A stretch of DNA of 64,000 nt. Origin: Streptomyces graminofaciens (GTDB lineage Bacteria > Actinomycetota > Actinomycetes > Streptomycetales > Streptomycetaceae). Of the stretch, positions 1 to 41,830 are shown one piece after another; within the stretch, counting starts at the first letter, position 1, and each line of letters starts with the position of its first letter. Location of the stretch: positions 3,534,001 through 3,598,000 of the forward strand of contig NZ_AP018448.1 of NCBI RefSeq assembly GCF_030294945.1, written 5' to 3'. Below the pieces are notes generated by a model. It did no database searches. It had not been told where the DNA came from and was given only the letters and a program-made list of their open reading frames with translations. The translations under genes and the position numbers were made by a program.

Positions 1-2
1 CC

Positions 3-494
3 ACCGCCTCGGCCCTCTCGCTGCTCCTCTTCCGCAAGCTCGTACGTCCGACACTGACCCAGCCCACCTTCGTGTTCGACTTCCCCACACGCGCCGCGCG
101 GTTCGCCCGCCCCCGGCCGGGTGATCCCACGCTGGTGGAGGCGTGGAGCCTGGTGCTGGCCGGCACCGACATCGGCCAAGGCTGTACAGAACTCACCGAC
201 CCCGTCGAACAGCGCCGTCGGATGACGGAACAGCGGCGCGAACCGGGTCTTGAACACCTGCCGCTGGACGAGGAGTTCCTGACCGCCGTGGAGCACGGAC
301 TGCCCCCGCTCGGCGGCTTCTCACTCGGCGTCGACCGGCTGCTCGGCGCCCTCCGCGACGACGGCCGCCGCCTCAGCGACCAGCAGTGCCTCGGCCTCGA
401 ACGGGCCGGCACCGCCACCAGCGAGCAGACTGGCAGGGACGCACCCCCCGAACAGACGGCGGACCAGGAGACCGACCGCGTAGAAGTGAGCTGA
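3..494 (+). CDS. lysyl-tRNA synthetase-like class II enzyme, 3' part
   Basis: This is the C-terminal 163 codons of a gene that begins before the window. The frame shows class II synthetase features of the LysRS group: the stretch around TQPTFVFDFP, then ELTDPVEQRRRM, then the motif-3-like GGFSLGVDRLL. Enzymes of this fold use ATP to activate an amino acid and pass it to tRNA or, in the EpmA/PoxA branch, to a protein side chain. The tail after motif 3 is low-complexity and unlike a housekeeping LysRS. It lies 2 bp before a small coupled gene in a run of biosynthetic-looking genes, so a specialised amino-acid-activating role is more likely than translation. The N-terminal half, which would show whether a tRNA anticodon domain exists, is not visible. 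Confidence 0.85.
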   Translation, partial: TASALSLLLFRKLVRPTLTQPTFVFDFPTRAARFARPRPGDPTLVEAWSLVLAGTDIGQGCTELTDPVEQRRRMTEQRREPGLEHLPLDEEFLTAVEHGLPPLGGFSLGVDRLLGALRDDGRRLSDQQCLGLERAGTATSEQTGRDAPPEQTADQETDRVEVS

Positions 495-496
495 CC

Positions 497-763
497 ATGC
501 GCATCTTCGATCACTTCAGCGCCTCCCTCCGGCAATCCGGCACCGCCCTCCAGCAGGCCGGCACCTCGCTACGGCGCTCCGGCACTGTTCTCCGCCGCTT
601 CGACTCCCCGCTCGGCCACTACAGCGGCTGCCTCGTCGACCGTGTCGCCCTGACGAACGGCTGGCCGTTCGCCGGCGGGTCGGCCCAGGCTCACCCCCTC
701 GACCGCGCCGGCACGGCCGACCGGTCACCCACCCCGCACCCGATGCGGACGGCCGCGCTGTGA
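497..763 (+). CDS. small 88-aa protein with heptad-like repeats
   Basis: I do not recognise this protein. It starts 2 bp after the synthetase-like gene and its TGA overlaps the GTG of the next gene by 4 bp, which argues that it is translated as part of the operon. Residues about 10-37 contain four successive seven-residue units built on the pattern L-R/Q-x-S/A-G-T-x, the last of them degenerate. The middle holds a single cysteine in HYSGCLVDR, and the C-terminal third is Pro/Ala/His-rich. No signal peptide or membrane segment is evident. Its position beside an amino-acid-activating enzyme suggests an acceptor, carrier or precursor peptide, but that is inference. A spurious ORF in GC-rich DNA cannot be excluded. 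Confidence 0.5.
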   Translation: MRIFDHFSASLRQSGTALQQAGTSLRRSGTVLRRFDSPLGHYSGCLVDRVALTNGWPFAGGSAQAHPLDRAGTADRSPTPHPMRTAAL

Positions 764-1719
764 CGCCCGTACCGAGATCCCCGGAATCCCCTGCCTCCGA
801 GGCACCCGGCCCGATCCCGCCGCCCGCCCTGGGCGTGTCCACCAGCGTGCTGTCCGACCGCACGGCGCTGGAATCCCTGCTGCCGTACGAACCCGATGTC
901 GTCGAGTTCTACAACTACCCCAGCACGATGGTCCCCCGCCTGGCCCGCTTCTGCGAGCGGCACGGGATACGGCCGGCACTGCACACCCCTGTGCCGTACG
1001 ACCTCGACGTGCCCCTGCGCCGGTTCGCCCCCACCGGGCCGGACGCCGCGGAGGCCGCGCTCGCGCTGCGGCTGGCCCAGCGGACCATCCGGCTCGCGGC
1101 GGACCTGGACGCCGTCCATGTCGTCGTCCACTTCCCCAGCCCGTATCCCCCGTTCTCGAGCGAGGGTTTCACCGAGCGCTGCACCGAGTTCCTGACGGCT
1201 TTGGCCGAGACCGCCCAGACGCATGGTGTTTCCGTGCTGGTGGAGAACCTGACCGCACACCCTCTCCTGCACACCCCCGAGCAGTACGCGCGAGCGCTGG
1301 ACGGCACCGGACTGGGCCTCTGTCTGGACCTGGGCCACGCGCACCTGCTCGGGGAGCGGGGCACACCGCTGCACTTCGGGCAGGTCCTCGGGCCCGCCGT
1401 GCGCAGCATGCACGTCTACAACACCACCCCTGACCGCTATCCCCGGCACGGCCACGAGGCGGCCGCCCCCGGTCAGTCGGGCCGGGACGGCTATCTGGAC
1501 CTCGGCGTCGTACTGCCCCGGCTGCTGGCACTGACCCGCCCACCGGTCGTGGTCATGGAGCACAATCCCCAGCCGACCGGGCGGCGCGAGAGGGACAGGC
1601 CGCGCCGGACCGCGGACTGGCTCCGGGAGCTGATTTCCCGGACTCCGGCCTCGGGCCTCGCCACGGATCAGAACCCGGACCAGCACCGGGCGCCGGGCCC
1701 GTCGCCGCGTCACCTGTGA
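760..1719 (+). CDS. sugar phosphate isomerase/epimerase-like TIM barrel
   Basis: This 319-aa protein resembles the xylose-isomerase-like / AP-endonuclease-2 TIM-barrel superfamily. Metal-binding positions typical of the fold are visible: HVVVHF, VLVENLTAHPL (Glu), LCLDLGHAHLLG (Asp and His) and VVVMEHNP near the C-terminus. Members isomerise or epimerise sugars and sugar acids or act as metal-dependent oxidases. The GTG start overlaps the stop of the 88-aa gene (GTGA). The last 25 residues are Pro/Arg-rich and probably disordered. With a PIG-L deacetylase and nucleotide-sugar dehydrogenase downstream it may act on a sugar-derived intermediate; the substrate cannot be read from sequence. Confidence 0.8.
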   Translation: MTPVPRSPESPASEAPGPIPPPALGVSTSVLSDRTALESLLPYEPDVVEFYNYPSTMVPRLARFCERHGIRPALHTPVPYDLDVPLRRFAPTGPDAAEAALALRLAQRTIRLAADLDAVHVVVHFPSPYPPFSSEGFTERCTEFLTALAETAQTHGVSVLVENLTAHPLLHTPEQYARALDGTGLGLCLDLGHAHLLGERGTPLHFGQVLGPAVRSMHVYNTTPDRYPRHGHEAAAPGQSGRDGYLDLGVVLPRLLALTRPPVVVMEHNPQPTGRRERDRPRRTADWLRELISRTPASGLATDQNPDQHRAPGPSPRHL

Positions 1720-1802
1720 CCCCTCGAGAGTCCAGCCCCCTCGAACATCCCCCCTGTGAAATCCACCCCCGCGAATCTTCACCCTGCGTCGAAAGAGATG
1801 TG

Positions 1803-3230
1803 ATGACTCAGTTTGACCATGTGGAACTCCTCCGCCGTATCTCTGTGGCGGACGGCAAGGAACGCACGGAGCGGCTCAAAGAACTCTCCGAGCTGACCCA
1901 GCGGCTGATCGACTCCACCGGCCGTGGTCTGTCCCTCTCCGAGGCGGATCTGTCCAACCTTCGGCTCGACGAGGCGGATCTACGCAGGGCCACCCTCAAC
2001 CGGGCCGTGCTGCACGGCACTCAGCTCCAGCGGGCGAACCTCGACGAGGTCACCATGGTCTGTCCCGGCATGGAGCGCACCAACCTCTCCGAGGCGAGCT
2101 TGCGCTCGGCCTACGTCCACGCGCTGGCCGCGCAGACCTGCAACTTCGACGGCGCCGACATGAGCGACCTGCGGGACGCGACCGGCACCCTCTTCCACGG
2201 GTGCAGCATGCGCGGTGTCCATCTCGACGGCGGCCACCTGGCCGGCAGCTCGTTCTACCAGTGCGACCTGTCCGGCGCGTCGATCCGCCACGCCAATCTC
2301 CAGGGCTCGCTGATCAACGAGTGCATGCTGGACGAGGCCGAGCTCTACGGCATCTGCGCGGACCAGCTCACGATCACCAAGTCCAGCCTGCGTGCCACCT
2401 CCTTCGTACGTGCCTCGGGACGCGGCCTGGTCCTGCAGCGGCTGACGGCCTCCGACGGCCTGATCCTCACCGACGCCGACCTGCCCGAGCTTCGGCTGTC
2501 CGACATCAGCGGCCAGGACTGGCAGGCGGCCGGGCTCAAGGCCGCGGGCGCCGACCTCACCGACGTCGCAGCCCCGGCGGCCGACCTCCGCGACGCCGAG
2601 CTGAGCGGGGCCCGGCTGCTGCGCTGCTCGATGCCCGACGCGTCGCTGGCCGGCGCCCTGCTCAACAACGGCAAGATCTCCGGCGGCAATCTGCGCCGCG
2701 CGGACCTGCGGGGCGCCCACGGCGAGAACCTGCACATCGTGGAGGCCGACCTCACCGACGCCGACCTCACCTCCTTCACCGGCCGATGTATGACGGTCCG
2801 GGACGGCAACATGGCCCGCGTGATCCTGCGGTTCGCCAATCTCTACCGGGCGATGATCACCGGCGATCCCCCGCGTGGCATGAGCCTGCGTGGTGCCGTC
2901 CTCGAAGGCGCGACCCTGGTGCAGGCCTACATCGCGGCGGACCTGCGGGAGGCCGACCTCAACGGAGCGAACTGCGCCTACAGCCGCTTCAGCCAGTCCG
3001 ACCTGTCGGGCGCCCGGCTCGACGGCACCAACATGTACCAGTCGACCTGGGTGAAAGTCACCCTGCACGGAGCCAGGATGAAGGACGTCCGCGCCCCCGT
3101 GTTCGCCGACCGCTGCCCCGGCCTGCGCAACGCGCTCGAACAGGCGGGCGGGACGGCTGCCGACGAGTTCCGTACCTTCCTCGACTCCTTCGACGCCGCC
3201 CTCGCCGCCGGCCGCAAGGGCTCGACGTGA
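1803..3230 (+). CDS. pentapeptide-repeat protein
   Basis: The 475-aa product is built almost entirely of A-(D/N)-L-x-x type pentapeptides (for example EADLSNLRLDEADLRRATL), which fold into a right-handed quadrilateral beta-helix. A GTG at 1716 overlaps the previous stop and would add 29 low-complexity residues. I prefer the ATG at 1803, which follows the purine-rich GAAAGAG. Some pentapeptide proteins mimic DNA and protect gyrase (Qnr, MfpA), others are scaffolds in biosynthetic clusters. This one is larger than the usual gyrase protectors of about 200 aa. Several interruptions with cysteines (QTCNF, HGCSM, YQCDL) break the regularity. A self-resistance or scaffolding role in the operon is possible but untested. 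Confidence 0.85.
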   Translation: MTQFDHVELLRRISVADGKERTERLKELSELTQRLIDSTGRGLSLSEADLSNLRLDEADLRRATLNRAVLHGTQLQRANLDEVTMVCPGMERTNLSEASLRSAYVHALAAQTCNFDGADMSDLRDATGTLFHGCSMRGVHLDGGHLAGSSFYQCDLSGASIRHANLQGSLINECMLDEAELYGICADQLTITKSSLRATSFVRASGRGLVLQRLTASDGLILTDADLPELRLSDISGQDWQAAGLKAAGADLTDVAAPAADLRDAELSGARLLRCSMPDASLAGALLNNGKISGGNLRRADLRGAHGENLHIVEADLTDADLTSFTGRCMTVRDGNMARVILRFANLYRAMITGDPPRGMSLRGAVLEGATLVQAYIAADLREADLNGANCAYSRFSQSDLSGARLDGTNMYQSTWVKVTLHGARMKDVRAPVFADRCPGLRNALEQAGGTAADEFRTFLDSFDAALAAGRKGST

Positions 3231-4000
3231 GCCTGTTCGGCGACCGGGTGCTGGTGATCGCCGCCCACCCGGACGACGCGGAACTCGCCGTGGGCGGCAC
3301 GATCGCCGCCCTCACCGAGCGGGACGCGAAGGTCACCGTCGCCGTGCTGACGGTCTCGGAAACGCCGTCCGACGACGATCCGGACCGACGCACCCGCCGG
3401 ATGGCGGCGGCCGAGGCCGCCGCCACGGTGCTCGGACACGATCTCGTCTGGGTCGCCGACGGTCGGTACGACCAGGTGGAGGACCTGCCCGCGTACCGCG
3501 TCGTGACCCTGCTGGACGAACTCCTGGACCGGATCCGCCCGGACACGGTGATCAGCCACTGGGACGGAGACTCGCACACCGACCATGTGCGGGTCGCCCA
3601 GGCGGTGGTCTCCGCCTCTCGCCGCTGGCCCGAGGTCACCTTCCTGCAGTTCGGGCCGAACGAGTACCGGACCGTCCGCCACGCCCAGTTCGTCCCGACC
3701 GTCTACGTACCGACGGGCGGCCACAGCGCCGCGAAGGCGCGCGCCCTCGCCTGCTACAGCTACCCCGGCCAGGGCTTCCGCGCCCTGGACCTGGAGACCG
3801 TCGAAGCCTTCGACCGGGCGCGCGGCGCAGCGGTCGGCACCCGGGCGGCGGAGGGACTCGTTCTCGTCCGCCACCGCCCGGATCCCGGCCGCCCCTCGCC
3901 GCGACCGCACACCCAGCAACCCACCGACCGCCCCCCGCAGCACGCGCATGCGGAGCAGGCCACCAGCCTGCGTTCACCCGAGAGTGAGCCTCTGCCTTGA
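3227..4000 (+). CDS. PIG-L (LmbE-like) family N-deacetylase
   Basis: This 257-aa protein has the PIG-L zinc site: AAHPDDAE near the N-terminus (residues about 12-19) and the distal SHTDHVR motif. The family removes acyl groups from amino sugars, as in GlcNAc-PI, mycothiol precursors and antibiotic aminoglycosides. The GTG overlaps the stop of the pentapeptide gene by 4 bp and the TGA overlaps the next TTG by 4 bp, so translation is coupled on both sides. The last 40 or so residues are Pro/His/Gln-rich and outside the fold. With a nucleotide-sugar dehydrogenase next door, an amino-sugar or acylated amino-acid intermediate is a reasonable guess at substrate. Confidence 0.88.
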   Translation: MSLFGDRVLVIAAHPDDAELAVGGTIAALTERDAKVTVAVLTVSETPSDDDPDRRTRRMAAAEAAATVLGHDLVWVADGRYDQVEDLPAYRVVTLLDELLDRIRPDTVISHWDGDSHTDHVRVAQAVVSASRRWPEVTFLQFGPNEYRTVRHAQFVPTVYVPTGGHSAAKARALACYSYPGQGFRALDLETVEAFDRARGAAVGTRAAEGLVLVRHRPDPGRPSPRPHTQQPTDRPPQHAHAEQATSLRSPESEPLP

Positions 4001-5445
4001 GCGATCTGATCGCGAAACAGACCCAGCACGAGGACGGAAACCGAGTGACCGACGGCACCGCACAGCCACCCGCTCGCCTTCCCGACGCCGTCGCCTCCCC
4101 CTCCTCCGAGCTGCTCGGCCGGACCAGGACGGCCTGCGTCTGGGGTCTCGGATACATCGGTTGGTCCACGGTGGAGGCGCTGCGCGCCGAGAAGATCAAC
4201 GTCGTGGGCTACGACGTCAGCGCCGACCGTGTGGCCTTCCTGAAGGACCAGGAGGAGCCGGGTCTCCTCCGGGTGACCGACGACCGGGACCTGGCGCTCG
4301 GCGACGACATCGCCGTGCATTTCATCTGTGTCCCCACGGAGCGGCAGGCCGAGCCCTACTCCGAGGCCCTCCTGGACGTCTTCGTCTCCATCGTCCGAGC
4401 GACCGCGTCCCGCCCGCGATCCGGCCCTCCCCCGCTGGTGATCATCGAGTCGACGCTCACCCCCGGCACCGTGGCACAACTGCTGCTTCCGCAGGCCATC
4501 GACGCCGGGCTCATTCCCGACCAGGATCTGCTGCTGGCGCTCGCACCGCGCCGGGACTGGTTCCTCTCGGAGGGGTACGGCCTGCGCGACCTGGACCGGG
4601 TGTACGGCGGTGTCGGCGAGACCTCCGCCGACGCGGCGTACGACGTGTTGTCGCTGGTGTGCGACACCCTGCACCGGGCTCAGGGTCACGTGGAGGCCGA
4701 GCTCGTCAAGTGCGTGGAGAACTCCTACCGCCATCTGGAGATCACTCTCGCCAACCAGCTCACCCTGGGCTACCCACACGTCGACATGGTGGAGGTGCTG
4801 CGGCTCGCGGGCACCAAGTGGAACATCGGCACCTACCACCCGAGCTTCGGCACCGGCGGCTACTGCATCCCACTGTCCAGCCGCTATCTGCTCAGTGGGG
4901 CCGCACGGCCCGAGGAGCTGTCGCTGCTCAGCCAGGCCGTCGACACGGACATGCGGATGCGGTCGCTGGTCGCCACAGCGGTCGGCGGCGGCCCGGTCCT
5001 GATCCTGGGAGTCGCCTACAAGGGAGGCATAAAGGTCGCCACCCTCAGCCCGACGATCCGTATCGCCGAGGAGCTCCACCGGCTGGGTGTGCCGTTCTCC
5101 GTGCACGACCCGATGTACACGGACGAGGAGATCGAGGCGCTGCTCGGCGCCGGCACGGTCACCAAGGACCTCGCCGCGGCCGTGCGCGGTGCCGACACCG
5201 TCCTGATAGTCCCGGACCACCCCGAGTTTCGCGGCGATCCGTATCTGGAGCTGCTCACGGAGCGGCGGGAGTCGCCGCTGCTGATCCTGGACAACCACGG
5301 GGTGCTGGAGGATCACCCGTCCTGGCCCGAGTGGGTGACGTACCGGCGGGCGGGCAACCCTCTGTGGCTCGACACCGATGCCGTGCGCGCGCCCGTGGGG
5401 AGGGGCCTGCCGAGCGGCGCACTTGTCGAGAAGGACCTGGTGTGA
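3997..5445 (+). CDS. UDP-glucose/UDP-ManNAc dehydrogenase-like enzyme
   Basis: The protein resembles the NAD-dependent four-electron nucleotide-sugar dehydrogenases. It has the Rossmann motif GLGYIG (about residue 50), a central helix with AELVKCVENSYRHLEITLAN, and the catalytic cysteine in GGYCIP (about residue 290), where family members usually read GGHCIP. A C-terminal nucleotide-binding domain follows (VLILGVAYKGG). The TTG at 3997 overlaps the previous stop. A GTG at 4045 has a better ribosome site (AGGACGG, 7 bp away) and may be the true start, removing 16 residues. Such enzymes make UDP-sugar uronic acids, but related proteins in secondary-metabolite clusters act on other hydroxylated substrates. 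Confidence 0.85.
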   Translation: MSDLIAKQTQHEDGNRVTDGTAQPPARLPDAVASPSSELLGRTRTACVWGLGYIGWSTVEALRAEKINVVGYDVSADRVAFLKDQEEPGLLRVTDDRDLALGDDIAVHFICVPTERQAEPYSEALLDVFVSIVRATASRPRSGPPPLVIIESTLTPGTVAQLLLPQAIDAGLIPDQDLLLALAPRRDWFLSEGYGLRDLDRVYGGVGETSADAAYDVLSLVCDTLHRAQGHVEAELVKCVENSYRHLEITLANQLTLGYPHVDMVEVLRLAGTKWNIGTYHPSFGTGGYCIPLSSRYLLSGAARPEELSLLSQAVDTDMRMRSLVATAVGGGPVLILGVAYKGGIKVATLSPTIRIAEELHRLGVPFSVHDPMYTDEEIEALLGAGTVTKDLAAAVRGADTVLIVPDHPEFRGDPYLELLTERRESPLLILDNHGVLEDHPSWPEWVTYRRAGNPLWLDTDAVRAPVGRGLPSGALVEKDLV

Positions 5446-5519
5446 CCGGGCTCGAACGGTCCTCGGCCGGTTTTCCGGCCGAGGACGCCGGACGCCGCGG
5501 CCCGGAGGTGGCGGAATGA
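5442..5519 (+). CDS. 25-codon mini-ORF coupled on both sides
   Basis: A 25-codon frame starts with GTG overlapping the dehydrogenase stop (GTGA at 5442-5445) and ends with a TGA overlapping the aminotransferase start (ATGA at 5516-5519). It exactly fills the gap between the two genes, and the aminotransferase ribosome site (GGAGG, about 5503-5507) lies inside it. It could be a coupling peptide that carries ribosomes from one gene to the next, or a chance frame. The peptide is acidic and has no recognisable motif. Confidence 0.3.
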   Translation: MTGLERSSAGFPAEDAGRRGPEVAE

Positions 5520-6712
5520 CCACGGCGGAACGTCCGCCGACGGCGGGCCGCCGCGCGAACCCTCGGGTACGGCTCGCCGGGGTGGGGAGCAACATCTTCA
5601 CCGAGATGTCCGCGCTCGCCGTCCGGTACCAGGCCGTCAACCTCGCGCAGGGCTTCCCCGATGCGCCCGGGCCGAGTTCCGTCACCGATTCCGCCGTCAG
5701 GGCTCTGCACGCCGGGCATCATCAGTATCCGCCGGTGCCCGGGCTGCCCTCGCTGCGTACCGCCATCGCCGACCACCAGCGCGACCGGTACGGCATCGTG
5801 CTCGCCCCGGAGACCGAGGTCGTGGTCACCACCGGCGCCTCGGAGGCGATCGCCGCGGCGCTGCTCGCCTTCGCGGGACCCGGTGACGAGATCCTCACGC
5901 TGGAGCCGTACTACGACTCGTACGCGGCCGGCGCCGAGTTGGCCGGTGCCCGGCTCGTCCCGGTCCCGCTGCCCGGCCCGGACTTCCGGCTCGCCCCCGA
6001 GCTGCTGCGTGCCGCCGTCACCGACCGCACGAGGGTCCTGCTCCTCAACAACCCGCACAATCCCACCGGAACAGTGCTGAACGAGCGGGAACTGACCGAA
6101 GTCGCGCGTGTCGCGATCGACCACGACCTGGTGGTGATCTCCGACGAGGTGTACGAGCACCTCGTGTACGACGGTCGGCATCGCCCGATCGCCATGCTGC
6201 CCGGGATGTTCGAGCGGACGGTCACCATCGGCTCGGCAGGCAAGACGTTCTCGTTCACCGGCTGGAAGGTCGGCTGGGCCACCGGTCCCGCCGATCTGGT
6301 TGCCGGCGTTCTCGCGGTCAAGCAGTATCTGTCCTTCGCCTCCGGTACGCCCTTCCAGCACGCGGTGGCCGACGCGCTGCGGCTGCCCGAGCGTCACTAC
6401 ACCGATCTACGCGACTCGCTCCGAGCCCGGCGTGATCTGCTGGTCGAGGGTTTGAGCGCGCTCGGTCTGCGGCCCCGTGCACCTGAGGGGACGTACTTCG
6501 TCCTCGCCGATGTGCGGGCCCTGGGCGCGGCGGACGGTCTGGAGTTCTGCCGGGAGCTGCCGCGCCGGTACGGTGTCGCAGCCATTCCCGCCCAGGTCTT
6601 CTACGCCGATCCCCAGGCGGGCCGCCATCTGGTGCGGTTCGTCTTCTGCAAGCAGGAGAACGTACTGCGGGAGGCGCTGCGCCGCCTCGCCCCGCTGCGA
6701 ACGGCCGGCTGA
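5516..6712 (+). CDS. class I/II PLP-dependent aminotransferase
   Basis: The 398-aa protein is a fold-type I aminotransferase of the methionine/kynurenine (YbdL/KAT) type. Visible features are NLAQGFPD near the N-terminus, the PLP-contact NNPHNPTG, ISDEVYEH, the Schiff-base lysine in SAGKTFSFTGWKVGW (Lys243), and an Arg in the C-terminal VRFVFCK segment that would bind the substrate carboxylate. The ATG at 5516 has a GGAGG site about 9 bp upstream. It is translationally linked to the dehydrogenase through the mini-ORF, suggesting transamination of a keto or aldehyde product made by its neighbours. Native substrate unknown. Confidence 0.9.
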   Translation: MTTAERPPTAGRRANPRVRLAGVGSNIFTEMSALAVRYQAVNLAQGFPDAPGPSSVTDSAVRALHAGHHQYPPVPGLPSLRTAIADHQRDRYGIVLAPETEVVVTTGASEAIAAALLAFAGPGDEILTLEPYYDSYAAGAELAGARLVPVPLPGPDFRLAPELLRAAVTDRTRVLLLNNPHNPTGTVLNERELTEVARVAIDHDLVVISDEVYEHLVYDGRHRPIAMLPGMFERTVTIGSAGKTFSFTGWKVGWATGPADLVAGVLAVKQYLSFASGTPFQHAVADALRLPERHYTDLRDSLRARRDLLVEGLSALGLRPRAPEGTYFVLADVRALGAADGLEFCRELPRRYGVAAIPAQVFYADPQAGRHLVRFVFCKQENVLREALRRLAPLRTAG

Positions 6713-6839
6713 GGCACCGTTCACCGCCGTCGGCGGCCGGGGCCGGCACGTATCGGAGCCGCCCCGCCGTGCCGCGGCCGCCGACGCCGAGCGGCGCCTC
6801 GCCACCATCACCCACCCCCCTTGCCTGGAGTGCTCTTCC

Positions 6840-7592
6840 GTGACCGACGCCATCACCGCCCCCTCCCCCGTCACCGACGCCGCCGCGCAGTCCCGCGCCG
6901 CCGAACTGGAGCGCAACCTCGCCGCCGCCCGGTCCCGTATCGCCCATGCGTGCCGGGCCGCGGGGCGGGCCCCCTCGGAGGTCACGCTGGTGGTCGTCAC
7001 CAAGACCTGGCCCGCCGAGGACGTACGGACCCTTCACGCGCTCGGCGTCACGGACGTCGGTGAGAACCAGGACCAGCAGGCCGCGGCCAAGGCCGCCGCG
7101 ACCGAGGACCTGCCACTGCGCTGGCACTTCATCGGCCAGTTGCAGCGCAACAAGGCCGCGTCCGTGGCCCAGTACGCAGACCTGGTGCACTCCGTCGACC
7201 GGCTCCCCCTGGTGGACGCGCTCGCCCGCGGCGCGGAGCGGGCCGGGCGGCGGCTGCGCTGTCTGGTCCAGGTCGGCCTGGACGACGCCCCCGGGCGGGG
7301 CGGTGTCGCGCCCGCCGGACTTGAGCGACTGGCCGACGCCATCGCCTCCCGCGCCCCCCGGCTGGAGCTGGCCGGCGTCATGACGGTGGCTCCGCTGCAC
7401 ATCTCGCCCGCCGAGGCGTTCGACCGTCTCGCGGTACTGCACGAGCGACTGAGGGCGAGCCATCCGGGCGCCGTGATCCGCTCCGCGGGGATGAGCGGCG
7501 ACCTGGAGATGGCGATCGCGTCGGGCGCCACGCATGTCCGCGTGGGCTCGGCCATCCTGGGCACCCGCGCGCCCCGCAACCCGGCTGCGTAG
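6840..7592 (+). CDS. YggS/PROSC-like PLP-binding protein
   Basis: This protein of about 250 aa has the alanine-racemase N-terminal barrel alone, as in YggS. The PLP lysine is in VVVTKTWPAED (Lys55), followed by VGENQDQ and the family signature HFIGQLQRNK, and ends with MSGDLEMAIASGATHVRVGSAILG. YggS proteins buffer PLP and usually lie in the cell-division cluster; this copy sits next to an aminotransferase instead, so it is probably a specialised paralogue serving the local pathway. The GTG start follows GGAG by about 10 bp. The gap from the aminotransferase is 127 bp, larger than elsewhere in the run, so it may have its own promoter. Confidence 0.87.
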   Translation: MTDAITAPSPVTDAAAQSRAAELERNLAAARSRIAHACRAAGRAPSEVTLVVVTKTWPAEDVRTLHALGVTDVGENQDQQAAAKAAATEDLPLRWHFIGQLQRNKAASVAQYADLVHSVDRLPLVDALARGAERAGRRLRCLVQVGLDDAPGRGGVAPAGLERLADAIASRAPRLELAGVMTVAPLHISPAEAFDRLAVLHERLRASHPGAVIRSAGMSGDLEMAIASGATHVRVGSAILGTRAPRNPAA

Positions 7593-7694: not shown

Positions 7695-8423
7695 TCACCT
7701 CTCACCGTGCAGCAGGCTGTACTGGAGGAATATGAGAGCCGCCTGGAGCCGGTCACGAGCCCCGAGTTTGGTGAGAATGCTGGAGACGTGGGACTTGACC
7801 GTCGCCACCGTGAGGCAGAACTCGTTGGCGATCTCCTGGTTGGACATGCCTCTCGCGACACCGGCCACCACGTCCCGCTCGCGAGGACTGAGATCGGCCA
7901 CCACCGTCTGCGAATCGCCACGTCCCTCCTCGACGCCGAAGGGCGCGAGGTTCCGCAGGCCGACGAAGAGCCTGCTCGTCAGCAGCGGCTGGAGGACGCT
8001 GTGGCCGTTCGAGACCTGCCGTACCGCGTAGATCAATTCGTCCTGGGTGAGACCCGGCAGCAGGATGCCGCTGACGCCCAGGCGGATGGCCCGGGTCAGA
8101 TTACGGTCGATGACGTGTTGGTCGGCGAGCATCAGCACGCGCGGCCGGGCGCGGAGCGAGGCTGCGGACAGCCGGCCCACCAAACGCAGAGTGTCGTTCT
8201 CGTCGTGGCTGCCGATATCGAGCACGACCACTTTCGGAGCCGTTCTGGCCACGAATTCAATGACGTCCTGATCGATCCGCTTCTCCGCGACGACATCGAA
8301 TCCGGTGGCCCGCAGAAGCATCTGTTTGAGACCACTGCGCACCAAATCGTCGTCACCGACGAGCATTATCCGTGTGGCTTTCCCCGGATTCCGCTCGGAT
8401 TCCTCGGCCATCAATGAAATCAT
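7695..8423 (-). CDS. LuxR-family response regulator with degenerate receiver
   Basis: The 242-aa protein pairs a receiver-like domain (residues about 18-140) with a C-terminal LuxR helix-turn-helix (LSPRERDVVAGVARGMSNQEIAN through TVKSHVSSILTKLG). The acidic pair and candidate phospho-Asp (VVVLDIG) are present, but the conserved Thr/Ser position reads VLMLADQ and the conserved Lys is replaced in GVSGILLPG. Canonical two-component phosphorylation is therefore doubtful. The ATG at 8423 is chosen because GGAAGGGG lies 8 bp upstream. No histidine kinase is nearby. It is convergent with the yggS-like gene and divergent from a second LuxR gene, so it probably controls the 1-7592 operon. Confidence 0.87.
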   Translation of the reverse strand: MISLMAEESERNPGKATRIMLVGDDDLVRSGLKQMLLRATGFDVVAEKRIDQDVIEFVARTAPKVVVLDIGSHDENDTLRLVGRLSAASLRARPRVLMLADQHVIDRNLTRAIRLGVSGILLPGLTQDELIYAVRQVSNGHSVLQPLLTSRLFVGLRNLAPFGVEEGRGDSQTVVADLSPRERDVVAGVARGMSNQEIANEFCLTVATVKSHVSSILTKLGARDRLQAALIFLQYSLLHGER

Positions 8424-8861
8424 GCGTCCGACCCCTTCCTGGACGACGGCACCGGCGAGCACATTCGCCTCTGCACCTGCGCCGATCAGCCGCCCAGAAC
8501 ACAACCATTAAACCACTGGAAGCTTCAAGCAACACAAGATAGCCCCAAGTTCGTAGGCCTCGGTTGCGAAGAGAGAAATTTTCCAGTCGAACGACTAGAC
8601 CCTGCCGACCGCTTAAGCAGATAACCAACCGAGTACGTATGCGCCGACGACAGCCGCCCTGTGCTCACTCACGCCGTATCACTGAGAGGTCTCGGGGCGA
8701 AAGGCGAACCAGACGGAATCCCGGGCCGAATGTCTTTATGGCGCGGTCGTGTCTTGACGCCGGAACCGAGGCCTCCCCTCTCCCCGGCCGGCCTGTGGCC
8801 GCAGCGAAGGCGACATGGTCGCCCGCCGGGGCTTCTCCACCTCCCCATGCACGGAGCAGCA
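8424..8861. other. divergent intergenic region between two LuxR genes
   Basis: About 440 bp without a convincing gene. The part from roughly 8505 to 8660 is clearly richer in A+T than its surroundings, as expected for divergent promoters. The rest reads as open frames only because of GC-rich bias. I see no perfect palindrome that stands out. Confidence 0.5.
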
Positions 8862-9581
8862 GTGATTCCACCCTCCACCGTCTACTCAGCACCCCTGCGG
8901 CCTTCACACACGACGACCCTGTCGGTCGCGCTGGTCCGCCACGGATGCGCCGGGCCCTTCGCCTGCGAGGGGTTCCACAGCCGCATCGTCCGCGAGCCCT
9001 GGGAGATCCGCCCGTCCGACGACGTCGTCCTCTTCCACGGGCCCCGCATGGGCGCGGAGTTGAGGCGTTTCTCGGACGAGGCGAACGGCGGGCTGCCGCC
9101 CCTCGCCGTCCTCGCGACCTGCTTCGACCGGGACGACGTGTGTCTCGCACTGGACAGCGGGGCCGTCGGCTATCTGCTGGAGACCGACGATCCGGACCTG
9201 CTGACGGCTGCGCTGCAGTGCGTCTCCCACGGGCACACCATTCTCGCCCCGCAGATCGCCGCGGAGCACCCGAAGGCCACGGCGCGCGCAAGGGGCTCGT
9301 GGCTTCCGACGCCGCGCGCGCAGAAGGCGGACACCATCAAGGGCGGGGATCGGACCGGTGGCCGCTCATCGCCCCTCGCGCTCTCACGGCAGGAGCGGGA
9401 GATCATGGCCCGGCTGGCCTCGGGCGTGTCGGTGCGTGAGACGGCCGTGGAGATGCGGCTGGCCGAGAAGACGGTCAGAAACTATCTGAGCAACGTCTAC
9501 GGAAAGCTCGGAGTGCACAGCCAGTCGCAGGCGCTCCTGCGCTGGCTCGGGCACGCTGACGGCACCTCACCGCCAAGTTGA
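8862..9581 (+). CDS. LuxR-family regulator with receiver-like N-terminus
   Basis: The 239-aa protein has a C-terminal LuxR HTH (LSRQEREIMARLASGVSVRE through KTVRNYLSNVYGKLGVHS). The N-terminal 130 residues keep the receiver-like tail (ALDSGAVGYLLETDDPDLLTAAL) but lack the conserved Lys and an obvious acidic pocket. The GTG at 8862 is chosen because GGAG lies 6 bp upstream; an ATG at 8847 lacks a ribosome site. It is divergent from the other LuxR gene, and both carry non-canonical receivers, which suggests ligand- or partner-driven control of the neighbouring cluster. Confidence 0.8.
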   Translation: MIPPSTVYSAPLRPSHTTTLSVALVRHGCAGPFACEGFHSRIVREPWEIRPSDDVVLFHGPRMGAELRRFSDEANGGLPPLAVLATCFDRDDVCLALDSGAVGYLLETDDPDLLTAALQCVSHGHTILAPQIAAEHPKATARARGSWLPTPRAQKADTIKGGDRTGGRSSPLALSRQEREIMARLASGVSVRETAVEMRLAEKTVRNYLSNVYGKLGVHSQSQALLRWLGHADGTSPPS

Positions 9582-9693: not shown

Positions 9694-11181
9694 TCATGCG
9701 CCGCGGAGGGGGTTGGCCAGCGGCAGATAGCGGGCATCCGCACCGTCAGCGCCCGTCCACCGCAGCAGGAGATTCGTCTTGCCCGGCAGCGTGGGTGAGC
9801 TGAGGAGTTCATCGACCTCGGGGATCTCCCCGTGCCGCTTCAGCTCGCGCCGCGCCGTCGGCCAGAGGTCGGCGTCCGGGTGGCGTTCCGTGAGGGCCGC
9901 CGCGATCTCCAGGAGGTTGTTGACGACGAGGCAGTACACGAGACGTTCCCAGCCGGTCGCCCGCTCCACGTCCGGCAGGAGCTTCACGCCCTCGGCGTCG
10001 CGGTACACGGCCTGCACGGGTGTGCCGGCGGCGTCGACCACGACCACGGTGTTCTGGAGGTGGGCCTCCAGGACGACGCCGTGGCGGTGGAAGGCGCCGA
10101 GGGCCGGGGACACGACAGCGCGCAGATACGCCTCCCACCAGGCGGCGGGGTCGGTGATCCGGTCCAGGGGGTTGCCGGGGAAGCCCTCGGCGAGGGCGGC
10201 GGCGAGGACGGGGGTGGTACCGGGGGCCAGGTGCGGGCGCAGGCCGTCGCGTACCAGTACCGCCAGCTCCTCGAAGGCGAAGTCGGCGGTGCGGTAGCCG
10301 CGGTCGCTCAGCCACGCCCCCGGCAGTTCGGTGAACGCCCTGGTGACGGCTGTGTCCGTGCGGCGGAGTTTCAGCAGGTCATGGCGCCAGAGTCGGCGTA
10401 TGTCGTTGGTGATCCGCACATCCAGGCTGAACTTGAGGAACAGGTCGCCGTCCGCCGCGTACACCGTGCGGATCGCCGCCGTCGGCCATACCCCGGCCGC
10501 CGAGTGCCCCAGCCGTACGAGGCGGCCGTCCGCGAAGGCGGGTGTCAGTTCCCGGGCGGCCAGGTCGAGTTGCCAGGGGTGGGCGGGCAGGAGGCGGTAG
10601 CCGGGCGGGGCCTCGCCCAGGGTGTCCAGGGCGGTGGTGTCGCCCTCCTCGACCACCGTGTCCTCGCGTACGCCGAGCAGGGTCAGCGGGAAGCGGGCGT
10701 AGGCCTCGGGCGCGTACGGCAGCCAGGCGGTGGCCGGGCCGGTGCCGCGGGCCTTGGGGGCGGGGTGGTGGGGGTGCCCGGTGATCAGGGACTGCTCGGA
10801 GCGGAGGTAGAGGTCCTCGGGTGCCGTGGCGCCGGCGCGCGCGGTGAGAATGGCGGCGACGGCGTCGCGGCTGTCGAGCATCTCGGTGGGCAGCTCGGGG
10901 TTGGACAGGCCGGTGAGGAGGCGGAGTTCCTCGGTGGTGAGTTTGACCAGCTCCGCGTGGGAGAGGCGCTGCCAGGTGCCGTCCGTGCGGAGTTCGGGTG
11001 CCGTGGGGCGGCGGGTGCCGTGCACCCGTAGGAGGCGGCCGGTGGCGCGGAGGCGGTGCACACCGGGTTCGACGGGCTCGGCCGCCTCCCGCAGGAGACA
11101 GTTGAGCAGGGGCGCGGCGGCGAGGGAGTCGGCGGCCTTGCCGATGCCGTCACGGTCAGGGGTGGCGTCCACGGGGTCCAT
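9694..11181 (-). CDS. IucA/IucC-family NIS siderophore synthetase
   Basis: The 495-aa protein is an NRPS-independent siderophore synthetase, which adenylates a carboxylate such as citrate or succinyl-hydroxamate and condenses it with an amine or alcohol. Family marks seen: LLPAHPWQLD, the nucleotide-binding KFSLDVRITNDIRRL, HGVVLEAHLQN and VYRDAEGVKLLP. The ATG at 11181 has AAGGA about 5 bp upstream; the GTG at 11199 is an alternative. It is divergent from a second NIS gene (11344-12843). No lysine/ornithine decarboxylase, monooxygenase or siderophore exporter lies in the visible neighbourhood, so the amine substrate is unknown. Confidence 0.93.
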   Translation of the reverse strand: MDPVDATPDRDGIGKAADSLAAAPLLNCLLREAAEPVEPGVHRLRATGRLLRVHGTRRPTAPELRTDGTWQRLSHAELVKLTTEELRLLTGLSNPELPTEMLDSRDAVAAILTARAGATAPEDLYLRSEQSLITGHPHHPAPKARGTGPATAWLPYAPEAYARFPLTLLGVREDTVVEEGDTTALDTLGEAPPGYRLLPAHPWQLDLAARELTPAFADGRLVRLGHSAAGVWPTAAIRTVYAADGDLFLKFSLDVRITNDIRRLWRHDLLKLRRTDTAVTRAFTELPGAWLSDRGYRTADFAFEELAVLVRDGLRPHLAPGTTPVLAAALAEGFPGNPLDRITDPAAWWEAYLRAVVSPALGAFHRHGVVLEAHLQNTVVVVDAAGTPVQAVYRDAEGVKLLPDVERATGWERLVYCLVVNNLLEIAAALTERHPDADLWPTARRELKRHGEIPEVDELLSSPTLPGKTNLLLRWTGADGADARYLPLANPLRGA

Positions 11182-11216
11182 TCGTTCCTTACGGTGCACT
11201 CATGATCAGTATGGCT

Positions 11217-11234: not shown

Positions 11235-11343
11235 GAAGCGGTGCGGGCAGTGGTCGTACGCCATGCCGTCCCGCGTGCCCGTACTCGTTCGACGCGGTCC
11301 GCACACCCGGTCGACACAGTCCCCGTACCCGAGGAGCCCGCCC

Positions 11344-12843
11344 GTGCCACATCGTCCGATGTCCGACGCCGAGGCGGCGCTCGGCGCCGAGCTGGCCGCC
11401 GTACGTCCCGATCTGACGCAGCCGTACACGGCGGCGCTCCCCGGTGCGCGGGCGGCCGTGCTGTCGCGGCTGTGGCGGGCGCTCGTCCATGAGCCACTGC
11501 CCTGGGTCGCGAGCCGTGAGCCGGGCGGCGACTCGGTCCTGCTCCGGCTCGCCGACGGGCGGCGGCTGCACGGCCCGGCCGTGGACCCGTACGCCACCGC
11601 CGCGCACACCTCGGAGGTCCGGCTCGACGAGCGGGCGTACGACCGTCCGGCGCGGCTGATGACCGCGCTGGCCGTGCCGCACAGCGCGGCCTTCGCCGCC
11701 GAACTCGACCACAGCGTGGCCTCCTTGGCCCTGTCCCGCGCCGACCAGGCCGGTGTCGAGGAGCCCGTGGCCGGCTGGGAGTGGGAGCAGCGGGTGGTCG
11801 ACGGGCACCCCTTCCACCCCAACTGCCGCTCCCGGCCCGGCTTCACGGCGGCCGACCAGCTGGCGTACGGGCCCGAGCATCGGCCGGTCGTCCGGCTGGG
11901 GCTCGCGCCCGTGGACGACGCGCTGGTCGTCGGGGAGTGGCCGGAGCGGTTCCGGGACGGGCGGCGGGTGCTGGTGCCGGTCCATCCGTGGCAGGCGGCG
12001 CATGTGCTCAAGAGCCCGCCGGGGCCCGACGGGCTCGACGCCCATCCGCTGATGTCGCTGCGCACCCTCGCGCTCGCCGACGGCGGGCCGCATGTCAAAA
12101 CCGCGCTGAGCGCCCGCCTGACCTCCTCCGTGCGCGACATCTCGGTCTACTCGATCGAGAACGCGGCGGCCGTCTCTGACTTCATGGCCGACCTCGCGAC
12201 CCGCACGGACGGTCTGCTGCACGTGACGCGCACGCTCGGCGCGGTGACCGCCGGTTCGCCCGACCTCGCGGCGGTCCTGCGCGAGTCACCGGAGGCGTAC
12301 GCGGACACGGCGGCCGGCGAGCGTGTCGTGCCGGTGGGCGCGCTGGCCACGACGGAACTGCCCCGGTCGCCCGCGTGGCTGGCCGGGTTCACGACGCTGG
12401 CGCTCACCGTCTGCCTCCGGCTGCTGGAGATGGGCGTGGCCCTGGAGGCGCACGGCCAGAACCTGATGGTGGTGCTGTCCCCGTCGGGTGCGCCGCTGCG
12501 GCTGGTCTACCGCGATCTGGCGGACATCCGCGTCAGCCCCGCCCGGCTGGCCCGGCACGGAATCCCGGTCCCGGACCTCGCCGGACGCATCGTCACCGAC
12601 GACGAGTCGACGTTGCGCCGCAAGCTGTTCGGCGCACTGGTGACGGGCGCGCTGGGGGCCACGGCAGGTTCGGCGCCCGCCCTGCGCGAGGCGCTCACCG
12701 CCGCCGTACCGGAGTTGCCGCGCACGCCGGACCTCGTGCCGCTGCTGGACGGGCCGGTGCCGACGAAGGCGTTGACGCTGATGCGGCTGTCGCCCGAGCG
12801 GTCGGGGGACAGCTGGGCGGAGGTGCCGAGTCCGCTGCGGTGA
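11344..12843 (+). CDS. IucA/IucC-family NIS siderophore synthetase
   Basis: This 499-aa protein is a second NIS synthetase, clearly divergent from its neighbour. It carries VPVHPWQAAHV, the nucleotide-binding VKTALSARLTSSVRDIS, MGVALEAHGQN and VYRDLADIRVS, all expected positions of the fold. The GTG at 11344 has AGGAG about 8 bp upstream; ATG 11359 is possible. Two NIS enzymes usually work in sequence, one on each carboxylate of a citrate or dicarboxylate core (as IucA and IucC do for aerobactin). Here they are divergent rather than in one operon. Confidence 0.93.
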   Translation: MPHRPMSDAEAALGAELAAVRPDLTQPYTAALPGARAAVLSRLWRALVHEPLPWVASREPGGDSVLLRLADGRRLHGPAVDPYATAAHTSEVRLDERAYDRPARLMTALAVPHSAAFAAELDHSVASLALSRADQAGVEEPVAGWEWEQRVVDGHPFHPNCRSRPGFTAADQLAYGPEHRPVVRLGLAPVDDALVVGEWPERFRDGRRVLVPVHPWQAAHVLKSPPGPDGLDAHPLMSLRTLALADGGPHVKTALSARLTSSVRDISVYSIENAAAVSDFMADLATRTDGLLHVTRTLGAVTAGSPDLAAVLRESPEAYADTAAGERVVPVGALATTELPRSPAWLAGFTTLALTVCLRLLEMGVALEAHGQNLMVVLSPSGAPLRLVYRDLADIRVSPARLARHGIPVPDLAGRIVTDDESTLRRKLFGALVTGALGATAGSAPALREALTAAVPELPRTPDLVPLLDGPVPTKALTLMRLSPERSGDSWAEVPSPLR

Positions 12844-15813: not shown

Positions 15814-17022
15814 ATGGAGTTCCGGCAGTCGAACAAGCTCAGCGAGGTCTGTTACGAGATCCGCGGCCCGGTGGTCGAGCACGCCAACGCGCTCGAGAAG
15901 GCGGGCCACAGCGTGCTGCGCCTCAACACCGGCAACCCGGCACTCTTCGGCTTCGAGGCCCCGGAGGAGATCCTCCAGGACATGATCCGGATGCTGCCGC
16001 AGGCGCACGGGTACACCGACTCACGCGGCATCCTGTCCGCCCGCCGTGCCGTGGCCCAGCGCTACCAGACCCTGGGCCTGGAGGTCGGCGTCGACGACGT
16101 CTTCCTCGGCAACGGCATCTCCGAGCTGATCTCGATGGCCGTACAGGCCCTGGTCGAGGACGGCGACGAGATCCTGATCCCCGCCCCCGACTTCCCTCTC
16201 TGGACGGCGGTGACCACCCTCGCGGGCGGCAAGGCGGTCCACTACCTCTGCGACGAGCAGGCCGACTGGTACCCGGACCTCGACGACATGGCGTCGAAGA
16301 TCACGGACCGCACGAAGGCCGTCCTGATCATCAACCCGAACAACCCCACGGGCGCGGTCTATCCCAAGGAGATCATCGAGGGCATCCTCGACCTCGCCCG
16401 CCGGCACGGTCTGATGGTCTTCGCCGACGAGATCTACGACCAGATCCTGTACGACGACGCCGTGCACCACTCGGCCGCCGCGCTCGCTCCCGACCTGGTG
16501 GTCCTGACCTTCTGCGGCCTGTCGAAGACGTACCGGGTGGCGGGGTTCCGCTCGGGCTGGCTGGTCGTGACGGGCCCGAAGCAGCACGCGAAGGACTACC
16601 TGGAGGGCCTGACCATGCTGGCCTCCATGCGGCTGTGCGCCAACGCGCCCGCGCAGTACGCCATCCAGGCCGCGCTCGGCGGCCGCCAGTCGATCCACGA
16701 CCTCACCGCGCCGGGCGGCAGGCTGCACGAACAGCGCGATGTGGCCTGGGAGAAACTCAACGAGATCCCGGGGGTGTCGTGTGTGAAGCCGAAGGGGGCG
16801 CTGTACGCGTTCCCGCGCCTCGACCCCAAGGTCCACAAGATCCATGACGACGAGAAGTTCGTCCTTGACCTGCTGCTGCGGGAGAAGATCCAGGTGGTGC
16901 AGGGCACGGGCTTCAACTGGCCGACCCCCGACCACTTCCGCATCCTCACCCTCCCCCACGCGGACGACCTCGACGCGGCGATCAGCCGGATCGGGCGGTT
17001 CCTGAGCGGGTACCGGCAATAG
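15814..17022 (+). CDS. AlaA-like class I aminotransferase
   Basis: The 402-aa protein closely follows the AlaA/AlaC group of alanine aminotransferases: NTGNPALFGFEAPEEI at the start, GNGISELISMAVQAL, INPNNPTGAVYP for PLP binding, FADEIYDQILYDD, and the Schiff-base region FCGLSKTYRVAGFRSGW. The reaction is pyruvate plus glutamate to alanine plus 2-oxoglutarate. The ATG follows GGAGG. Length and motifs match the family throughout. It is divergent from the HxlR regulator. Confidence 0.92.
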   Translation: MEFRQSNKLSEVCYEIRGPVVEHANALEKAGHSVLRLNTGNPALFGFEAPEEILQDMIRMLPQAHGYTDSRGILSARRAVAQRYQTLGLEVGVDDVFLGNGISELISMAVQALVEDGDEILIPAPDFPLWTAVTTLAGGKAVHYLCDEQADWYPDLDDMASKITDRTKAVLIINPNNPTGAVYPKEIIEGILDLARRHGLMVFADEIYDQILYDDAVHHSAAALAPDLVVLTFCGLSKTYRVAGFRSGWLVVTGPKQHAKDYLEGLTMLASMRLCANAPAQYAIQAALGGRQSIHDLTAPGGRLHEQRDVAWEKLNEIPGVSCVKPKGALYAFPRLDPKVHKIHDDEKFVLDLLLREKIQVVQGTGFNWPTPDHFRILTLPHADDLDAAISRIGRFLSGYRQ

Positions 17023-41719: not shown

Positions 41720-41737
41720 ACGCTCCGCCGGGAGCGT
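41720..41737 (+). terminator. short hairpin at the stop of 41024-41719
   Basis: ACGCTCC-GCCG-GGAGCGT starts at the first base after the TGA. Confidence 0.5.
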
Positions 41738-41830
41738 GGGAGTGGAACCGCGGGCCGTCCGCGGCTGGTCGCGCCCGCGCGGCGCAGACGCATGCGCGAC
41801 GGCCCGGCGCCCCTCACGGCGGCGCTGCTT

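Follow-up and report, generated by a model that had tools for sequence, protein, structure and literature searches.

What might be made by an operon that sets a relative of lysyl-tRNA synthetase (LysRS) beside a long pentapeptide-repeat protein and enzymes of sugar-nucleotide type? The question is raised by a run of eight open reading frames (ORFs) at 3..7592 of a 64,000-nucleotide stretch of Streptomyces graminofaciens DNA, referred to here as the window, which covers contig positions 3534001-3598000 of a genome that consists of a single 11.6-Mb contig. The run was first described from the letters alone (the sequence-only reading); the plus strand does carry all eight ORFs, and the interpretation offered with them is partly supported by the analysis described here. 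The answer favored here, in which we place about even confidence, is that the run is a rare specialised-metabolite operon whose LysRS-derived ligase joins a basic amino acid to an aminosugar-derived unit. The observations that carry this answer are the conserved co-occurrence of the genes, a LysRS-like enzyme that keeps its catalytic set while its pocket and one anticodon-domain position are altered, and a predicted pentapeptide fold that is conserved on one side; the substrates, the joining step, a scaffold role, lateral spread and the product are what we infer from them. The eight features are as follows.

1..494, plus strand: 3' part of the LysRS-like gene (derived from a class II aminoacyl-tRNA synthetase), whose whole product has an oligonucleotide-binding (OB) fold and a class II catalytic domain
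497..763, plus strand: ORF of 88 residues, not conserved, with 7-residue repeats near the N-terminus by eye
760..1719, plus strand: AP_endonuc_2/xylose-isomerase-like TIM-barrel enzyme, the most diagnostic marker of the cluster
1803..3230, plus strand: pentapeptide-repeat protein of 475 residues, a predicted quadrilateral beta-helix of ~19 coils with one conserved side
3227..4000, plus strand: PIG-L/LmbE-type de-N-acetylase with AHPDDAE and HTDH motifs
3997..5445, plus strand: dehydrogenase of the UDP-glucose dehydrogenase superfamily (UGDH-like), nearest to UDP-N-acetylhexosamine dehydrogenases
5516..6712, plus strand: class I/II pyridoxal phosphate (PLP) aminotransferase, PRK07777-like, with a 55% paralogue elsewhere in the genome
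6840..7592, plus strand: YggS-family PLP-binding protein, with a 58% paralogue in an apparent division-gene locus

The window start falls inside the LysRS-like gene, which is a 598-residue ORF at 3532698-3534494 of the genome; its conserved start is probably M22, at the equivalent of which the ORF of Streptomyces sp. yr375 begins. The claim that most genes are linked by 4-bp overlaps holds with certainty for three of the seven junctions (760-763, 3227-3230 and 3997-4000), while the other four are gaps or depend on a GTG start. An overlap of the TIM and pentapeptide genes at 1716-1719 requires such a start; because relatives support ATG and not GTG, the pentapeptide gene is taken to begin at ATG 1803, which leaves an 83-bp gap. 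The remaining gaps are of 2 bp (LysRS-like/88-residue ORF), 70 bp (UGDH-like/aminotransferase) and 127 bp (aminotransferase/YggS).

The operon and its relatives

The gene set recurs well beyond this strain. A scan of named genomes recovered the same operon, minus the 88-residue ORF, in Streptomyces sp. MA5143a and yr375, with a gene order common to the three strains and protein identities of 65-88% (LysRS-like 65-69%, TIM 77-82%, pentapeptide 87-88%, PIG-L 82-83%, UGDH-like 77-79%, aminotransferase 83-87%, YggS 79-81%); in MA5143a a relative of an AMP ligase (45%) follows about 1.5 kb past YggS. A genome taken as Streptomyces sp. HSG2 (G990) carries LysRS-like, TIM, pentapeptide, PIG-L, UGDH-like and YggS genes; it further encodes AMP-ligase, NDK-like, acyltransferase, methyltransferase, M16-peptidase and ABC-exporter relatives. 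In a genome of another genus (G261), a HisZ-like protein accompanies the TIM, pentapeptide, PIG-L, UGDH-like and aminotransferase genes. Genes for an AMP ligase, acyltransferase, methyltransferase, epimerase and amino acid racemase (170.2 against 93.1 bits; scores are given throughout as bits against the cut-off of the model) are present there as well, and no YggS was found within the 20 kb read.

Plasmids carry the set as well. All seven Streptomyces plasmid records that have the TIM gene also have pentapeptide and UGDH-like genes, and the three linear plasmids read whole add genes for YggS, aminotransferase, PIG-L, HisRS and HisZ-like proteins. Further genes of the plasmid clusters (Mg1, ADI95-16, goshikiensis) encode an AMP ligase, a DegT aminotransferase, an epimerase, an acyltransferase, a methyltransferase and an exporter. 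In the cluster of plasmid pSMg1-1 of Streptomyces sp. Mg1 (stretch L044, 2380-25075), which includes HisRS, HisZ-like and PIG-L genes, the predicted epimerase and ArnB/PseC-like aminotransferase would fit a 2,4-diamino sugar and extend the aminosugar theme.

The TIM gene, which is the best tracer of the cluster, occurs in three of 392 genomes of the genus, one of 393 of the class and one of 396 of the phylum, counts that include S. graminofaciens each time and come from three partly overlapping draws. The pentapeptide gene adjoins it in all three of the Streptomyces genomes among those 392 that have it. Searches with the TIM and LysRS-like proteins, in which the best 8000 and 7999 candidates by shared words were scored, placed both on contigs of equal length, taken as the same, in S. 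heilongjiangensis, NPDC051907, Kitasatospora xanthocidica and Streptosporangium sp. DT93. With yr375 and MA5143a, which agree in the same way, and HSG2, where the locus itself holds both genes, a TIM gene lies on the contig of at least seven of the 17 other members of the LysRS-like clade described below. A pentapeptide scan of 246 genomes gave 21 that pass the E-value, with near-full-length matches only in S. graminofaciens and one other genome (G062); the remaining 19, generic pentapeptide repeats (best 63.6 bits), were not counted. Two further genomes with UGDH relatives were set aside as core carriers after 20 kb of each was read: G436 has PIG-L and UGDH-like genes and a weak acyltransferase match, and G490 has the UGDH relative alone.

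The constant core is TIM, pentapeptide, PIG-L and UGDH-like, mostly with aminotransferase and YggS, and the synthetase-like partner varies, being LysRS-like in some clusters and HisRS/HisZ-like in others. This exchange hints at a synthetase-derived part that differs from product to product. Conserved co-occurrence across actinomycetes, which the sequence-only reading had proposed as a check, is thus observed in MA5143a, yr375, HSG2, G261 and the seven plasmid records; the genes are neither confined to one strain nor parts of separate known pathways. The set also proved as unfamiliar as it had seemed, in that no paper describing it was found in the open-licence literature searched, where a description in a subscription journal would still be possible.

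The encoded proteins

The operon enzyme is not the usual LysRS of its genome. Housekeeping LysRS was found to be a class I enzyme, with PF01921 matches of 378-398 bits in all five genomes checked. Because that model also matches 13 of 14 control genomes, including E. coli (nine over its low 27-bit cut-off), the S. graminofaciens match was rechecked with NCBIfam, where it passes the class I lysine--tRNA ligase cut-off (293.8 against 147.55). Class I LysRS is present in archaea and some bacteria (PMC7373986, PMC2916919). The genome has three PF00152 genes, of which two are aspartate-type, and this leaves the operon gene as the sole class II synthetase of Lys type. The protein, in which the OB fold is present, falls below the models for canonical class II LysRS (TIGR00499, 273.1 against 427.6), EpmA (162 against 286.9) and LysX (402.9 against 742), the last being its best match and covering only the LysRS part.

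A profile search and tree placed it in a clade of 18 proteins (support 100/100, stem 0.95 changes per column), separate from 14 further LysRS and E. coli LysS; the branches of EpmA, E. coli LysS and DT93 are long. The clade comprises the S. graminofaciens protein and 17 of the best 120 matches listed, without P0100, a shorter form of that protein, and the comparison set of 15 comprises 14 picked among the same listed matches and E. coli LysS. In the numbering of E. coli LysS, residues E241, R263, E279, E429 and R481 are retained in all 18 members. In the same 18, F/Y427 is replaced by Cys, A239 by Thr, Ser or Asn, and E135 by Ala or Thr, and 17 of 18 have Gly476 replaced and 17 of 18 a one-residue deletion in the GGAAARPF loop; the 15 comparison proteins are free of all these changes. 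We take F/Y427, A239 and G476 to be lysine-pocket positions and E135 to be an anticodon contact. E. coli EpmA has Ser at the 239 position and Ala at the 476 position and keeps Phe427; the first two positions presumably steer its selection of beta-lysine. Among the open-licence papers listed in a search on the EpmA/LysRS residue switch, none carried the mutant name. With catalytic residues kept and pocket and anticodon-domain positions changed, adenylation appears to be retained and the choice of amino acid altered. Judged from these residues, the enzyme should form the aminoacyl-adenylate of a basic amino acid, as the proposal of an amino-acid-activating enzyme had anticipated, probably with an altered amino-acid choice and perhaps without normal charging of tRNA-Lys.

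The sugar-type enzymes are recognizable to differing degrees. The TIM protein (AP_endonuc_2) has a Glu, an Asp, a His and a Glu that are invariant across relatives and would suit the usual metal site of the family. The PIG-L protein passes PF02585 (72.7 against 28.2), has the zinc motif and lies under the BshB and MshB cut-offs; AHPDDAE and HTDH are presumably its functional motifs. In the UGDH-like protein three Pfam domains pass, the TIGR03026 score is 166.5 against 189.8, and the best NCBIfam equivalog is UDP-ManNAc dehydrogenase, far under its cut-off; its nearest structures in the PDB are Cap5O and the UDP-ManNAcA dehydrogenase 4r16, and the active-site Cys, Lys and Asn are kept in six clusters. 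A PIG-L protein beside a dehydrogenase of N-acetylhexosamine type suggests an aminosugar acid. YggS passes TIGR00044 (148.2 against 106.25), and the other copy in the genome sits in a locus that reads ftsZ-YggS-YggT by eye. A weak match to the aminotransferase (28-30%) was seen downstream at 15961-16914 of the window, plus strand.

The pentapeptide-repeat protein matches its Pfam family strongly (133.7 against 20.2) and has the tandem A(D/N)LXX coils of that fold. AlphaFold2, given five aligned sequences, predicted N-terminal helices, a beta-helix of ~19 coils and C-terminal helices with a mean pLDDT of 91.4. Foldseek matched this model to HetL, synthetic solenoids, QnrB1, AlbG and MfpA, with a best shown TM-score of 0.29 by query length and low values of about 0.13-0.22 for the four natural proteins named.

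To locate conserved positions on the model, the coil register was set by a simple score and residues invariant across seven sequences were counted. By face, these make up 19/60, 31/60, 11/57 and 0/57 of outward positions and 18/40, 9/40, 12/38 and 14/38 of inward ones, and the spread among outward faces was matched in none of 20000 permutations. Six actinomycete sequences by themselves gave 29/60, 36/60, 17/57 and 11/57 outward, with the same permutation outcome. The conserved ladder, which begins at H71 and ends at Q413, is made up of R, K, H, Q, Y, T, E and D in mixture; a dedicated binding or catalytic side would be expected to look like this, and we take it to be unlike the acidic, DNA-mimicking surface of MfpA and Qnr. 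Pentapeptide relatives in the first clusters aligned share 53-88% identity. A homologue on plasmid p187_1 of Bradyrhizobium sp. 187 (stretch L098, 13932-16501) shares 41% over the full length and the same invariant side, and adjoins a gene like that of pantoate-beta-alanine ligase; IS21 and group II intron genes lie upstream of it.

A proposed pathway and its rivals

In the favored pathway, the LysRS-derived class II enzyme, no longer serving a housekeeping role, would adenylate a basic amino acid other than ordinary translational lysine and transfer its activated acyl group onto an aminosugar-derived unit, at an amine or a hydroxyl. This unit would be prepared by the dehydrogenase of N-acetylhexosamine-nucleotide type, oxidizing the sugar at C6, by the PIG-L de-N-acetylase, freeing its amine, and by the TIM barrel, acting as an isomerase or epimerase, with the aminotransferase also shaping it. 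The YggS paralogue would support PLP-dependent amino-acid chemistry, and the conserved side of the beta-helix may be a binding face for a partner protein, a nucleic acid or the growing product. Selection of the amino acid would fall to the synthetase-derived part, which is LysRS-like here and exchanged for HisRS/HisZ-like proteins in sister clusters. The operon has probably spread laterally. A bolder form of this proposal, which we put forward only tentatively, is that an interchangeable synthetase-derived selector works on a constant aminosugar core and that the pentapeptide helix, with a ladder of invariant polar residues over ~17 coils on one side, is a dedicated assembly platform or enzyme rather than a mimic or a structural filler. 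Such a platform would be, to our knowledge and after a search that was not exhaustive, the first biosynthetic role of a pentapeptide-repeat protein.

Several observations weigh against this pathway. The OB fold is retained in all five LysRS-like members scanned, and the positions of F85 and Q96 in all 18, so that the enzyme may still bind tRNA. In the UGDH-like proteins of six clusters, the Asp of CxPxD is replaced by Ser and the DxRxSP motif is lost; the first is presumably catalytic and the second a UDP/nucleotide-binding motif of the family, and with both gone the substrate may be unusual and perhaps no nucleotide sugar. CalS8, moreover, is a close third among the PDB matches of this protein. 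Of the HSG2 aminotransferase, only a C-terminal remnant survives, split over two frames, and its place is taken by an unrelated ORF (L049, 7912-10981); inspection by eye suggests catalytic degeneration in the HisZ-like proteins of sister clusters. The other core genes are absent from the 29 kb read around the Bradyrhizobium pentapeptide homologue, and ten of the 17 other clade members have no TIM gene on the same contig among the matches listed, from which that of HSG2 is also missing. No relative of the AMP ligase, acyltransferase, methyltransferase or exporter was found within 20 kb on each side of the window start, and no NDK-like protein in the S. graminofaciens genome. Evolutionary rate is not diagnostic, since the LysRS-like protein shares 69% with its yr375 copy and class I LysRS 73% (AspRS, 84%); divergence of the LysRS-like enzyme as an argument against a housekeeping role was dropped for this reason. 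Five of the six pairs entered that comparison, AspRS against HSG2 having been omitted because only 32 residues matched.

The LysRS-like enzyme might instead protect its host, as a resistant second LysRS against a product that inhibits LysRS, in the manner of SerRS2 for albomycin; for an inhibitor of HisRS, HisS of the plasmid clusters would play the corresponding part. According to a review (PMC9437257), organisms that make synthetase inhibitors have divergent second synthetases, with an identity of about 30%. The HisRS of the Mg1 plasmid scores above its NCBIfam cut-off (339.7 against 286.75), and the retained OB fold of the LysRS-like protein is in keeping with a charging enzyme. Nevertheless, this explanation is considered unlikely: positions 427, 239 and 135 are changed throughout the clade, where all 15 comparison LysRS have an aromatic residue, Ala and Glu, the housekeeping LysRS to be replaced is an unrelated class I enzyme, and G261 has a HisZ-like protein only, within the 20 kb read.

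The retained OB fold, together with the kept positions of F85 and Q96, would equally suit an enzyme that charges tRNA with a non-standard basic amino acid, to be donated to the product or to the 88-residue peptide as a small precursor, in the way of natural product pathways that depend on tRNA. A short ORF follows the synthetase gene in each of the three nearest operons, and the HSG2 and Mg1 clusters have genes for an M16 peptidase and an ABC exporter at their flanks. Against this stand the loss of E135 in all 18 clade members, general family scans in which no aminoacyl-tRNA transferase family appeared among the operon proteins, and the scarcity of tRNA genes, a scan of seven stretches having yielded only one, for tRNA-Arg, 34 kb away in the window. 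The short ORF also speaks against this reading. Its GC at third codon positions is coding-like (GC3 = 0.90), but a homologue search of 5.8 billion proteins returned only itself, its slot is occupied in the two nearest operons by dissimilar ORFs of 84 and 113 residues, of which the longer lacks a coding-like GC pattern across codon positions, and no conserved leader and core of the kind expected in the precursor of a ribosomally synthesized and post-translationally modified peptide (RiPP) was found. It may be a small fast-evolving peptide or no gene product; found only in S. graminofaciens, with unlike ORFs in its neighbors' slots, it was not treated as a conserved carrier. Donation from tRNA thus seems quite improbable. 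Attachment to a carrier, which the sequence-only reading had allowed for, found no candidate, since no carrier protein was recognized among the operon proteins by family scans or in the clusters by a frame search. A carrier starting inside the LysRS-like C-terminus was also considered, from a GxDS-like string that seemed, by eye, to lie in another frame in two relatives, and was dropped after the frame search gave no convincing carrier; in HSG2, the place of its proposed start is the start of the AMP ligase.

A resistance role had been proposed for the pentapeptide protein too, and would make it a topoisomerase-protecting factor like MfpA, Qnr or AlbG and the product a gyrase poison. The fold class is the same, and QnrB1, AlbG and MfpA are, with HetL, among its structural matches, at low TM-scores. 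The protein nonetheless scores far below the MfpA and Qnr models (59.0 against 360 and 57.9 against 240 bits), has 475 residues where the matched chains have about 180-260, presents R, K, H, Q and Y besides E and D on its conserved side, and has its full-length Bradyrhizobium homologue beside a pantoate-ligase-like gene, all of which leaves protection of topoisomerase very improbable. Finally, a chance neighborhood of unrelated paralogues, for which the close paralogues of the aminotransferase and YggS elsewhere in the genome might speak, is hardly credible given an order conserved in three strains and a core in three further lineages.

Flanking genes and known systems

Two regulator genes follow the operon.

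7695..8504, minus strand: NarL/LuxR-type regulator, a possible cluster regulator with a 68% relative at the same place in yr375
8661..9581, plus strand: LuxR-type regulator with GerE only, probably outside the module

Both had been read as fitting a specialised-metabolite cluster; that both are fixed members of it is not borne out by comparison. The first, with a GerE domain and a receiver domain under the Pfam cut-off (28.5 against 30.2), recurs in one of the two nearest relatives (yr375) and has no match in the MA5143a stretch; the second is matched in none of the six loci of relatives that were compared. A more consistent cluster regulator is an OmpR-type response regulator that is divergent from the LysRS-like gene in all three copies of this operon type (75-82% identity in MA5143a and yr375). 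It came to light when the upstream flank was read, as had been advised, together with the whole LysRS-like ORF and conjugation-type genes. As a marker of conserved backbone the response regulator was rejected: it is matched at E 1e-60 in 12 of 40 relatives, at no more than 60% identity, and so is probably on the same island as the operon. The conjugation-type genes, SCO6880-family and VirB4-like (genome 3524919-3531451; L009, 10919-17451), have similar counterparts upstream of the operon in MA5143a and yr375 (judged by position and by eye) and may point to a mobile island. Three large consecutive proteins with C-terminal LuxR-type domains are encoded further upstream (L009, 112-7734).

Downstream, two IucA/IucC-type siderophore synthetase genes adjoin the operon region (window 9697-11199, minus strand, and 11263-12840, plus strand) and probably form a separate locus for a siderophore made independently of nonribosomal peptide synthetases (NRPS). 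The window's tRNA-Arg gene, predicted by ARAGORN at 41726-41820 on the minus strand, is unusually long at 95 bases and has the anticodon gcg. Rfam gave no match on the three loci scanned, and none of the eight operon proteins matched PADLOC anti-phage models at E 0.001.

These findings point to an apparently undescribed and rare family of actinomycete clusters. As no hallmark of NRPS, polyketide synthases or known RiPPs was recognized in the operon, we would expect that rule-based genome miners may miss it. If the bolder form of the proposal is right, it would represent a new assembly logic for aminoacyl natural products. The LysRS-like enzyme would add a further kind of repurposed LysRS to LysU, PoxA and LysX, and its pocket changes are open to direct testing on a single purified protein; the conserved side of the beta-helix offers a target for asking what metabolic role such a surface may have.

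Among known systems, the nearest to the LysRS-like enzyme are those in which LysRS has been duplicated. A table in a review of duplicated synthetases gives LysU, PoxA and LysX for LysRS and HisZ for HisRS, and the same source states that the EpmA family prefers beta-lysine as substrate, for EF-P (PMC9437257); another paper describes PoxA as a LysRS core that lacks the anticodon domain but in which the residues that bind lysine are conserved (PMC2821294). Like EpmA/PoxA, the operon enzyme is a LysRS-derived, presumably adenylating enzyme with catalytic residues kept and small residues at 239 and 476; unlike them, it has an OB fold, Cys at 427 where EpmA has Phe, and an operon setting of biosynthetic type.

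The Streptomyces plasmid clusters, for which no described product was found in the searches made, share TIM, pentapeptide, PIG-L, UGDH-like, aminotransferase and YggS genes with the window operon, which differs in having a LysRS-like gene instead of HisRS and HisZ-like genes and a smaller gene set. Their UGDH-like protein, epimerase, ArnB/PseC-like aminotransferase and PIG-L would, we presume, suit 2,4-diamino-2,4-dideoxy sugars of the prumycin type, a compound named in papers listed by a literature search, among which no gene cluster for it was seen; unlike such a route, the window operon is without epimerase and DegT genes. The UGDH-like protein resembles Cap5O and 4r16 in fold family and in its active-site Lys, Asn and Cys, and departs from them in the replaced Asp, presumably catalytic, and DxRxSP, presumably nucleotide-binding. 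The pentapeptide protein, in turn, has the predicted quadrilateral beta-helix of HetL, MfpA, Qnr and AlbG, and is set apart from them by about double the length and by an invariant side that it has in common with its alphaproteobacterial homologue.

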